Shown here piece by piece: positions 4,369-6,631 of a stretch of DNA of 64,000 nt. The notes beneath the pieces are model-generated. The model did not search any database. It worked only from the letters and a program-made list of their open reading frames with translations, and was not told the origin of the DNA. Every line of letters starts with the position of its first letter. The stretch's first letter is position 1. The translations under genes and the position numbers were made by a program. Source of the DNA: Geothrix sp. (GTDB lineage Bacteria; Acidobacteriota; Holophagae; Holophagales; Holophagaceae); assembly GCF_020622065.1 (NCBI RefSeq), contig NZ_JAHRYQ010000002.1:64867-128866 (forward strand). The letters are read 5' to 3'.

Positions 4369-6114
4369 TCACGGCTTCGGCGGTTCCATCCGGAAGCTGA
4401 AGGTCTTCCAGGGGGCATCCAGCAGGACGCGGGTTTCGCCGCGCCAGCTGAAATCCGGGTTCTCACTGCGGATCAGAAGACTGCCGCCGGCCTGGGAGGC
4501 ATCGAACACAACATTGGGCCTGGATTCGGCCCATGGAGTGGCAGCCGTCGGCTCCTCTGAGGGCCTCGTCCCGATGTGAATGCTCGCCAGCGCCTTGGTG
4601 CCTTCCGACGGCAGGATGTTCAGAACCAAGTTCCCCCGGCCACTGATGCGCAGATAAAGAGTCTTCTGCCCCCCAGAGCCCCGGATCACCCCTCGCACCT
4701 CACCGTCCGCCAGCGGCGCCTCGGGTTGCACGGCCTTGGCGGCCAGCACATCCATCACCAAGGCACGGTAGCGGGTCGCCTCCTCGGTGATGCGCCCTTC
4801 CTCCAGGGCCCTCTCCCCGCAGTTGTAGGCCGCCACGGCTTTCGCCACATCCCCCTGATAGCGGTCCAGGAGAAAGCGCAGGTACTTCGCCCCCGCCGCC
4901 ATGACCTGGGCGGGATCGTTCAGGTCCTTCGCGCCGTAGGTCCGGGCGGTGTCGGGCATGACCTGGAGCAGGCCCAGAGCCCCCAGCGGGCTTCTGGCCG
5001 CTGAGTTGAAGCCGCTCTCCACCCAGGCCATGCTGCGGAGCAGCTGGGGATCCACACCTTCGCGGATCGCCAGGGCATCGAGCTGGGCCACCACCGCGGC
5101 CGGGGCTCCGATGGGAGGGTTCGCCGGAGTGGCCGCCCGCAAGGCCACCACCGCGCAGGGGATCAGGAGGAGGGTGAGAAGCCCCCCATGGAAGCCCGTG
5201 ACGGGCCTGGGCGTGAGCAGCCGTTCGATGCGCGCGAGCAAATGTCCTCCTCGGGCCGCGAGGGCCGGAAACAGCGGGAACGGAAGGGCGGGCTGGAGGT
5301 CATCCAGCGCATTGAGGGCCAGGGCCAGGCGCCGCGGATCGCCGAGGCTCCGGGCCGCCAGATCATCGGCGAGTTCCTCGCGCTCGGCCCGGATCCGGGC
5401 CGAAAGCCACCAGACGGCGGGATGGAAGAAGAGCAGCGTCTCGGCGAGGCCCTGAAGCAGGTTGCCAAGGTAGTCCAGGCGGTGCACATGGGCCAGCTCA
5501 TGGGCCAGGAGCGCCTCCAGATAGGCCTGAGGCAGGCTGGTGAGCAGGGCGACCGGAACCAGCACCACGGGCCTCCACAGGCCGAGGGCCATGGGCGTGT
5601 CGCCCCGCCTCGTCAGGAGCAGACGGACGGAGCACCGCAGGCCCATCCGCTCCGCCAGCGCCTTGACCACAGCCTCCCATTCGCGAGGGGCCGGGGTCCC
5701 CTCCCGTCTCCAGCGCAGGCTGAGCGCGAAGCCCCCGCCCAGGCGCACGGCCATGAGGCCGGCCCCCAGCGCCCACAGCGCCACCAGCACCGGCAGGCGG
5801 GGCTGAAGCGCCGCTTCCAGGCGGGTCAGCAACGGGGGGGCGATGGTCAGCGTCGAAGCGCGGTGGACGGTGGGCGACGCGAGGATCTGGAGGTCCATGC
5901 CGACCTGCCCCGGCCCCGCCGACACGGGGCGGTGGAACCGCCAGGCCGTGCCCGCCGGCACCACCAGGCATAGGAACAGGATCAGACCATTCAAGGCGTG
6001 GCGCGAGCGGTCCCGCAGGAAGAGGCCACCCCCCGCCGCCAGCAGCACCAGGAGACAGCCCTGCCAGAGCGAATGAATGAGGGACCAGCCCAGGATCTGG
6101 ATGAAGGCGGTCAT
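4369..6114 (-). CDS. BlaR1-like M56 metalloprotease fused to a lytic transglycosylase (SLT) domain
   Basis: The 581-residue protein has the BlaR1/MecR1 layout: membrane helices near residues 5-33, 39-57 and 106-124, a zinc protease loop with HELAH (205-209) and a downstream EREELADD helix, then a fourth helix at about 308-326. In BlaR1 the segment after this helix is an extracytoplasmic penicillin-binding sensor. Here it is an SLT-type transglycosylase domain with catalytic-type Glu366 (WVESGFN), GLLQVMP (381-387) and AYNCG (429-433), followed by about 115 residues of beta-rich sequence. Its start overlaps the blaI stop (ATGA). Inference: a sensor-protease that binds or cleaves peptidoglycan and inactivates the neighbouring BlaI repressor. 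Confidence 0.88.
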   Translation of the reverse strand: MTAFIQILGWSLIHSLWQGCLLVLLAAGGGLFLRDRSRHALNGLILFLCLVVPAGTAWRFHRPVSAGPGQVGMDLQILASPTVHRASTLTIAPPLLTRLEAALQPRLPVLVALWALGAGLMAVRLGGGFALSLRWRREGTPAPREWEAVVKALAERMGLRCSVRLLLTRRGDTPMALGLWRPVVLVPVALLTSLPQAYLEALLAHELAHVHRLDYLGNLLQGLAETLLFFHPAVWWLSARIRAEREELADDLAARSLGDPRRLALALNALDDLQPALPFPLFPALAARGGHLLARIERLLTPRPVTGFHGGLLTLLLIPCAVVALRAATPANPPIGAPAAVVAQLDALAIREGVDPQLLRSMAWVESGFNSAARSPLGALGLLQVMPDTARTYGAKDLNDPAQVMAAGAKYLRFLLDRYQGDVAKAVAAYNCGERALEEGRITEEATRYRALVMDVLAAKAVQPEAPLADGEVRGVIRGSGGQKTLYLRISGRGNLVLNILPSEGTKALASIHIGTRPSEEPTAATPWAESRPNVVFDASQAGGSLLIRSENPDFSWRGETRVLLDAPWKTFSFRMEPPKP

Positions 6115-6485
6115 TGCTCCTCCCCGCCCAACATCTCCCGAATGCGGTTCTTCTCGTCGGGGCTGACGGTTCCGGAGCGGAGGGCCGCAAGCACCAGCGC
6201 CGCGGCCGAACCCCCGAACAACCGCTCGGTCAGGTCCGTCACCAGGCCGCCCTCCGTGGTTGCCCGGCTCTGGGCAGGCGCGTAGACATGACTGCGTTGG
6301 CTCTCATCCCGGGTCACCAGGCCCTTCTCCAGCATCACCTGGAACATCCGCAGCACGCCGGTGTACGCATAGTCCTCTCGGCGGCTCAGGTAGGCATGGA
6401 CCTCCTTGACCGTGGCCGGGCCCAGCTCCCACAGGATGCGCAGGAGCTTGAGCTCCACTTCTGTCGGCTTGACGGGACGCTTCAT
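6111..6485 (-). CDS. blaI: BlaI/MecI-family transcriptional repressor
   Basis: This 124-residue winged-helix protein has the family opening (KPTEVELKLLRILWELGPATVKEV) and a central YAYTGVLRMFQVMLEKGLV recognition region, followed by a short dimerisation and cleavage tail. Start ATG at 6485 was chosen over an upstream in-frame extension because the operator lies at 6495-6524, directly before it. BlaI proteins repress their own operon until the partner M56 protease triggers their cleavage. The partner is the overlapping downstream gene. No beta-lactamase gene is linked, so the targets are probably cell-wall genes elsewhere or only this operon. Confidence 0.9.
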   Translation of the reverse strand: MKRPVKPTEVELKLLRILWELGPATVKEVHAYLSRREDYAYTGVLRMFQVMLEKGLVTRDESQRSHVYAPAQSRATTEGGLVTDLTERLFGGSAAALVLAALRSGTVSPDEKNRIREMLGGEEQ

Positions 6486-6494
6486 GGGACCTCT

Positions 6495-6524
6495 TACACA
6501 AGATGGTGTAGACAATTTTGTGTA
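6495..6524 (-). promoter_or_regulatory. Candidate BlaI operator/promoter of the blaI operon
   Basis: Upstream of blaI the half-site TACACAA (6495-6501) and its complement TTGTGTA (6518-6524) form a perfect 7-bp inverted repeat with a 16-bp spacer. Inner copies (GTGTA at 6506-6510, TAGACA at 6509-6514) create overlapping TACAC/GTGTA dyads. ACA/TGT dyads are the hallmark of BlaI/MecI operators. The position, 10-40 bases before the blaI start, fits autoregulation. Confidence 0.6.
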
Positions 6525-6631
6525 TATTCTTCCCGCTGTCAATCCGGAAACAAGCCGGACAGGACCAGGAATGCCGAGCAAGCTCCGGCCGGCTTTGCCA
6601 CACCAGGGTGCGGGGCCCCGAAGAATGAAAA

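Follow-up and report, generated by a model that had tools for sequence, protein, structure and literature searches.

The 64,000-nucleotide stretch of Geothrix sp. DNA analysed here (hereafter the window, from contig NZ_JAHRYQ010000002.1) contains a two-gene operon in which a repressor of the BlaI/MecI/CopY type is paired with an M56 membrane protease that carries an SLT lytic transglycosylase domain at the position of the BlaR1 sensor. The reading we favour, and hold to be probable from the sequence, is that the fusion protein would act as a wall-watching BlaR1-like receptor, releasing BlaI to induce its own operon and, in some species, deacetylation of the cell wall. The parts themselves (M56 receptor, BlaI, SLT and CE4 deacetylase) are known, and their combination is a variant of the BlaR1/BlaI kind, built like a BlaR1 and probably also working like one. 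The features on which the argument draws are the following.

6537-6542, minus strand: -35-like TTGACA of the blaI promoter (promoter scan; found in all 9 loci aligned, including that of the window)
6515-6520, minus strand: -10-like CAAAAT, within operator box 1 (promoter scan)
6495-6524, minus strand: putative 30-bp BlaI-type operator, boxes TACACAAAATTGTCTA and TACACCATCTTGTGTA (9 of 9 loci)
6111-6485, minus strand: blaI, BlaI/MecI/CopY-type repressor, 124 residues (Pfam PF03965, 89.4 bits)
4369-6114, minus strand: M56-SLT receptor gene, 581 residues (reading frame, Pfam, orthologue alignment)
5137-6114, minus strand: BlaR1-like membrane protease part, residues 1-326, with a gluzincin site predicted to face the cytoplasm (Pfam, AlphaFold2, hydropathy)
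5488-5502, minus strand: HELAH zinc site, residues 205-209 (sequence, orthologue alignment)
4795-5082, minus strand: SLT lytic transglycosylase domain, residues 345-440 (Pfam PF01464, conservation, fold match)
5017-5019, minus strand: Glu366, predicted catalytic acid (kept by all 18 fusion sequences examined)
4372-4716, minus strand: beta-rich tail, residues 467-581 (sequence, model)

Operon layout and putative operator

The ATG start of the fusion gene, as called from the open reading frame, lies within the last codons of blaI, and the resulting 4-base overlap makes a two-gene minus-strand operon of the kind the earlier note had described. Pfam assigns the first gene product to Penicillinase_R (PF03965) well above threshold (89.4 bits, cut-off 22.6). 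Nine bases separate the blaI start from a 30-bp sequence consisting of two 16-bp boxes (6509-6524, TACACAAAATTGTCTA, and 6495-6510, TACACCATCTTGTGTA) that have a TA in common and share the build TAC-N10-GTA. This sequence overlaps a sigma-70-like blaI promoter, TTGACA-16-CAAAAT at 6542-6515, which agrees with the consensus in 10 of 12 letters. In alignment by eye the 30 bp behind TTGACA are kept in all nine same-genus loci, and conserved BlaI-type boxes lying across the repressor gene's own promoter are what the proposal of an autoregulatory operator at this place would predict.

A BlaR1-like protease with a lytic transglycosylase in the sensor position

The first part of the fusion protein is recognisable as an M56 protease, with Peptidase_M56 at residues 103-251 (79 bits, cut-off 31); the NCBIfam BlaR1 model matches this protease part alone, scoring 37 bits where its cut-off is 400. 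The gluzincin residues H205, E206, H209, D214, E246, D250 and R298 are invariant in eight aligned orthologues (the window protein and seven others at 64-72% identity), and they repeat, four positions later and with the spacing kept, the catalytic and structural residues H201EXXH, D210, E242XXXD and R294 described for BlaR1 (PMC9834060). Hydropathy places transmembrane (TM) segments near residues 15-33, 40-58, 107-125 and 307-325, with a further hydrophobic segment (176-194) falling where BlaR1 has a re-entrant loop. An AlphaFold2 model, built on a 20-row alignment, superposes its predicted protease part on BlaR1 (8exs) with a Z of 19.7 over 252 residues and a root mean square deviation of 4.8, block means of model confidence being 88-97 for residues 1-60 and 101-270. 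The four helices and the cytoplasmic HELAH motif of the earlier note are thus borne out, the helices and the cytoplasmic facing as predictions.

The SLT domain (PF01464, residues 351-439, 81.8 bits against a cut-off of 21.3) begins about 20 residues past TM4. Its motifs are intact, with E366 in the ES motif, GLLQVMP and AYNCG all as the earlier note had reported them, and none of the 18 fusion sequences inspected has lost the catalytic Glu. Pfam lists no transpeptidase domain, where BlaR1 has its penicillin-binding sensor with an SXXK serine; SLT stands after TM4 instead. The protein is not a BlaR1 or MecR1 in the strict sense, because the beta-lactam sensor that defines these is missing, yet judged by its sequence it belongs with them as an M56 receptor built on one plan. 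Homology with BlaR1, whose topology is Nout-Cout (PMC9834060), predicts a periplasmic SLT domain, which is the extracytoplasmic placement that had been proposed.

Among the eight orthologues the SLT domain and the helix that follows it are the most conserved part of the fusion (mean pairwise identity 84.4% and 85.6%, respectively, against 77.1% for the protease), and the loop at residues 59-106 is the least conserved (45%). A homologue from an Acidobacteria metagenome bin is 64% identical over the whole M56-SLT protein. The beta-rich tail, judged by length, is missing from the shorter fusions in genomes G331, G342, G096 and Plesiocystis.

Distribution and origins of the fusion

Looking for M56-SLT fusions beside blaI in other genomes, the check named in the earlier note, gave 22 Acidobacteriota and three Myxococcota genomes. 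The Acidobacteriota search used a protease-SLT query at E 1e-25 and read the fusions as open frames in 22 of 396 genomes, a lower bound because at most five candidates were scored per genome; partial matches reaching only partway into the SLT part (e.g. G123) were left out of the count. Sixteen of the 22 belong to the same genus, four (G408, G363, G370 and G331) to three other genera of the family, and two (G342 and G096) to another family. A nearer search added a gapped fusion copy in G009, and a scan of named genomes found the fusion in the myxobacterium Plesiocystis pacifica SIR-1; a match was present in three of 282 Myxococcota genomes (Plesiocystis, G513 and G630), and all three are fusions. 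G370 has a second copy, truncated by the end of its contig, which brings the total to 27 operons, and blaI lies directly upstream in every one. The overlap of the two genes is 4 bases long in 15 of 18 operons compared and 1 base long in the other three; on contig C53 of G370 there is none. The open frame in 22 genomes also disposes of a frameshift or assembly error, which the earlier note had named as fatal to its proposal. Two look-alikes (G141 and G284:C240) were not fusions once read, the M56 genes of G355 and G036 have no SLT, ten further M56 loci of same-genus or Geothrix genomes gave no SLT match, and a viral scan returned two weak SLT loci.

A tree was built from 89 M56 domains, 16 of them from fusions; on it the fusion label needs five changes, the starred branches forcing only one. 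A single origin of the 16 was rejected (lnL 58.7 lower, approximately unbiased test p 0.004), in a test from which seven long-branch rows, picked after the first tree, had been dropped and whose group was not chosen blind to the tree. Neither a single clade of the Holophagaceae-type fusions (p 0.60) nor one of Plesiocystis, G342 and G096 (p 0.87) was rejected; the free tree came from a quick search, which missed better trees in both of these later tests, and the fusions of G513 and G630 are in no tree. By eye, the SLT sequences split into the same two types, type 1 mostly ending in a KAVQP-like motif common to a stand-alone transglycosylase of the family and type 2 having an insert and no beta tail. 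We conclude that SLT was captured by M56 receptors at least twice, and we limit the claim to that number because the tree search was quick.

The second, tailless type is represented by five loci (L219, L220, L102, L258 and L259) from two Acidobacteriota and three Myxococcota genomes, and no deacetylase match lies within its two Acidobacteriota loci. The host genome also encodes a stand-alone SLT protein (L062, C2:1064410-1064865) that is 44% identical to the fused domain and has the same KAVQP end; among the matches listed, nearly all same-genus genomes have close relatives of it. Going by this resemblance, it may be the donor of the fused domain.

A secreted deacetylase as probable second operator target

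Independent support for a circuit concerned with the cell wall came from the search for further operator sites. In the host genome (3.35 Mb, two contigs) a scan with TACACAANATKGTSTA gave, apart from the operator itself, a single no-mismatch match, at C2:871147-871162 (TACACAATTTTGTGTA). The putative box there adjoins a TATACT hexamer and lies 58 bases before the gene of a secreted 311-residue polysaccharide deacetylase of CE4 type. The earlier note had seen no linked beta-lactamase; the operator scan pointed to no further gene, and no search was aimed at beta-lactamases.

The same association recurs in other genomes. Across 17 same-genus fusion genomes, all 27 sites matching TACACANNNNTGTGTA with at most one mismatch lie at blaI (21) or before the deacetylase (6): 13 in the first nine genomes (10 and 3, respectively) and 14 in eight more that were searched after the rule had been fixed (11 and 3). 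The reversed pattern, as a control, occurs at 7 places in the 17 genomes, and eleven same-genus genomes in which no fusion was found have two TACACANNNNTGTGTA sites, at neither gene, and five reversed ones. The scan is known to miss sites (G006 shows none, some genomes one box only, and even the blaI operator goes undetected in G254); G408 has no TACACANNNNTGTGTA site. When the deacetylase upstream regions of six genomes are aligned, the box stands out as a conserved island amid diverged sequence.

Two genomes of a sister genus, g15, in which the motif differs, show the link as well. G363 has TACACCTTGCAATGTACATTATTTATCGTACATTGGTTGTCGTA as its blaI operator and TACATTTTTTATCGTACATTATAATTCGTA as its deacetylase site on another contig, both with the same new letters, and in G370 two blaI/M56-SLT operons are each divergent from a deacetylase gene (76% identity), the intervening DNA carrying three shared boxes. 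In total, all eight genomes found to have both the fusion and a member of this deacetylase group (at least 60% identity) link the two by operator or by position. None of 20 loci of a related deacetylase group (41-46%) has a site at up to two mismatches, and the locus of a distant deacetylase in G342 (33%) has no TAC-N10-GTA box. From these patterns we consider it very likely that a BlaI operator is shared by the receptor operon and, in some species, the deacetylase gene, as a two-gene regulon. No wide regulon was seen at the sensitivity used; with three mismatches the host genome gives 42 matches on both strands and the reversed pattern 73, so weak sites cannot be judged.

The deacetylase has a NodB domain (PF01522, 65.9 bits), a start that by eye resembles a signal peptide, and the motifs FDDGP and NHTxxH in 8 of 8 aligned sequences. 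Its best relatives in the PDB by sequence are the peptidoglycan GlcNAc deacetylases 5o6y and 4l1g (E 5e-13), and peptidoglycan is its likeliest substrate.

Proposed mechanism

At rest, BlaI would occupy the 16-bp boxes of TAC-N10-GTA build that cover its own promoter. Where a species has the gene of the secreted CE4 (NodB-type) deacetylase, BlaI would also occupy boxes over or beside the promoter of that gene. The signal would arise when the SLT domain, which we infer to be catalytically competent and to sense the wall directly, meets altered peptidoglycan, which could mean that glycan strands have become accessible, that turnover fragments are present or that its active site is filled or blocked. 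Its packing against the membrane domain would then shift and switch on the cytoplasmic zinc protease, which would inactivate BlaI (by cutting it, going by homology) and free both promoters. More receptor and more deacetylase would result, and the deacetylase would N-deacetylate wall glycan and so guard it from attack by lysozyme-like enzymes and transglycosylases. BlaR1 has an outer loop lodged in the active site of its sensor, from which penicillin displaces it (PMC9834060); in the fusion protein the corresponding loop may occupy the groove of the SLT domain until glycan strands, turnover fragments or an inhibitor push it out. Given how short the linker is, nascent strands or soluble fragments would be likelier signals than the mature layer. 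Since a peptidoglycan dipeptide can release BlaI/MecI directly (PMC3305447), a second, cytoplasmic input is possible, and where the deacetylase is present there would be feedback, because the output would act back on the sensor's own substrate. The SLT domain may also be an effector, as only autoregulation was found where the deacetylase is absent. Of the interpretation in the earlier note, the architecture, the predicted placement of SLT and the pairing with BlaI stand, and direct sensing of the wall is carried forward here as a proposal.

Several observations weigh against this mechanism. The SLT part is modelled with moderate confidence (pLDDT block means of about 50-80) and the tail poorly, and the fold match of the SLT part to MltF (Z 7.7 over 97-106 residues; Slt was also matched) is in the range that the fold tool calls common, the domain assignment being sure all the same because of the sequence match. 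The linker after TM4 is so short that the SLT domain may not reach the mature wall. Fourteen of the 22 Acidobacteriota fusion genomes have no member of the deacetylase group at 60% identity or more; at the thresholds used, G189, G226 and G408 have members of the 44-46% group alone, G342 only its 33% relative and the other ten none. Plesiocystis also has no member of the group, so this output is not universal, and G009 likewise has none. Finally, the deacetylase scores far below every NCBIfam cut-off listed (55 bits against 400 for the PgdA model), and RFTFLREG stands where we would expect the usual third CE4 motif, so that a substrate other than peptidoglycan is possible.

Alternative explanations

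A narrower form of the wall-sensing proposal, overlapping it, is that the SLT domain detects inhibitors or attackers instead of the state of the wall, serving as bait for bulgecin-like transglycosylase inhibitors or for wall exposed by lysozyme. N-deacetylation is a usual defence against lysozyme, which counts in favour of such a role, and bulgecin-bound entries of Slt, MltE, MltF and MltD are among the fold matches. There are also analogies in BlaR1, where a penicillin-binding fold detects penicillin (PMC9834060), and in RsiV, a direct receptor of lysozyme (PMC4183432). The operator sites, however, showed no gene for resistance to compounds of this sort, and we regard this form as possible but rather doubtful.

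The SLT domain could instead be the output, an inducible membrane-anchored wall cutter whose dose is set by autoregulation, with the M56 part answering to the state of the membrane, to misfolding or to a cytoplasmic peptidoglycan fragment acting on BlaI. Retention of the catalytic Glu in all 18 sequences is what such an enzyme would show; in 11 of the 17 same-genus fusion genomes no site was found beyond the receptor's own operon, and direct release of BlaI/MecI by a peptidoglycan dipeptide (PMC3305447) would supply the signal. On the other hand, SLT sits exactly at the sensor position of BlaR1, right after TM4, three BlaI-M56 paralogues of the same genome bear quite different tails there, as swappable sensors would, and the deacetylase as co-target is left unexplained; we think an output role unlikely. 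That the fusion is a chance event without a role in signalling, or an artefact of assembly or frameshift, has nothing for it beyond the oddity of the fusion and is extremely improbable for a protein that has an unbroken frame in 22 Acidobacteriota and three Myxococcota genomes, arose at least twice, always accompanies blaI and has a strongly constrained SLT domain.

Comparison with known systems

As a BlaR1-like receptor, the M56-SLT protein and its operon have their closest counterparts in BlaR1/BlaI and MecR1/MecI of Staphylococcus and Bacillus. As far as the descriptions available to us go, these share the blaI-type repressor, the M56 gluzincin with four TM helices and an extracytoplasmic C-terminal domain; common to both are also an operator over the promoter and autoregulation together with a defence-like target. 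The M56-SLT system differs from them in having a lytic transglycosylase in place of a penicillin-binding sensor, a polysaccharide deacetylase in place of beta-lactamase or PBP2a as co-target, and operator boxes of TAC-N10-GTA build, unlike those of BlaI and MecI. The fused domain resembles MltF and Slt in SLT fold and motifs (Z up to 7.7), and MltF also couples its lytic transglycosylase domain to a second, regulatory domain; to our knowledge, both are free-standing wall enzymes, neither fused to an intramembrane protease nor paired with a repressor. The secreted co-target is, like the PgdA-type peptidoglycan GlcNAc deacetylases (CE4/NodB), a member of PF01522, with 5o6y and 4l1g as nearest PDB entries; unlike them, it belongs to a divergent subgroup with a C-terminal part of its own and RFTFLREG as its presumed third motif. 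RsiV/SigV of Bacillus subtilis is similar in that an envelope receptor answers attack on the wall by regulated proteolysis of a gene regulator (PMC4183432), which in the account available to us is an anti-sigma factor cut by signal peptidase, with no BlaI involved. Among the matches listed in a search of open-licence full text, which is weak evidence of absence, there was no M56-SLT or BlaI-deacetylase system.

Other BlaI-M56 pairs and neighbouring genes

The host genome has five BlaI-M56 pairs. Three of the others (L011, C2:195000-208000; L012, C1:296000-309000; L013, C2:990000-1003000) have tails of roughly 540, 220 and 380 residues past TM4, each different and none with a Pfam domain above cut-off. 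By eye, their operators are 16 bp long and approximately of TAC-N10-GTA build, of the TACAC/TAGAC, TACGG and TACGA types, respectively, and from their sequences the three pairs look like parallel circuits, each with its own operator address. The fusion operators of Plesiocystis, G342 and G096, the three loci looked at by eye, are of TACGA type. The remaining pair (L014:6070-7427, near C2:427k) is minimal, its 319-residue M56 protein being almost tailless and having HEEGH for HELAH; its neighbours, which we take to be RND, membrane-fusion and cation-efflux (CDF-like) genes, make it possibly a metal-response version. In genome G005 three M56 matches lie within about 6 kb (C7:47021-52802), hinting at a tandem expansion of M56 receptors.

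Next to the operon itself, the 3' side of the M56-SLT gene has a G+C-rich palindrome without a T run, which is absent from the list of the automatic promoter and palindrome scan. Beyond it, on the other strand, lies a gene that we take to be ruvC-like, and upstream of the operon one that is presumably malic-enzyme-like.

Implications

BlaI-M56 pairs are common, but outside beta-lactam resistance few of their signals and targets are known to us. In the M56-SLT system the sequence itself speaks to both ends of the circuit, since a domain like a wall-cutting enzyme occupies the sensor position and the co-target resembles a wall-modifying one. Taken at its fullest, and put forward only tentatively, the proposal is of a class of envelope receptor with at least two origins, in which a BlaR1-like protease would read the wall through a working lytic transglycosylase serving as probe or bait, induce itself and N-deacetylate the wall, a sense-and-armour circuit against wall-cutting enzymes or inhibitors. 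With this system, what BlaR1-like receptors sense becomes directly testable. The repeated uptake of SLT suggests that M56 receptors serve generally as a platform for sensing the wall, of which the detection of penicillin would be one special case.

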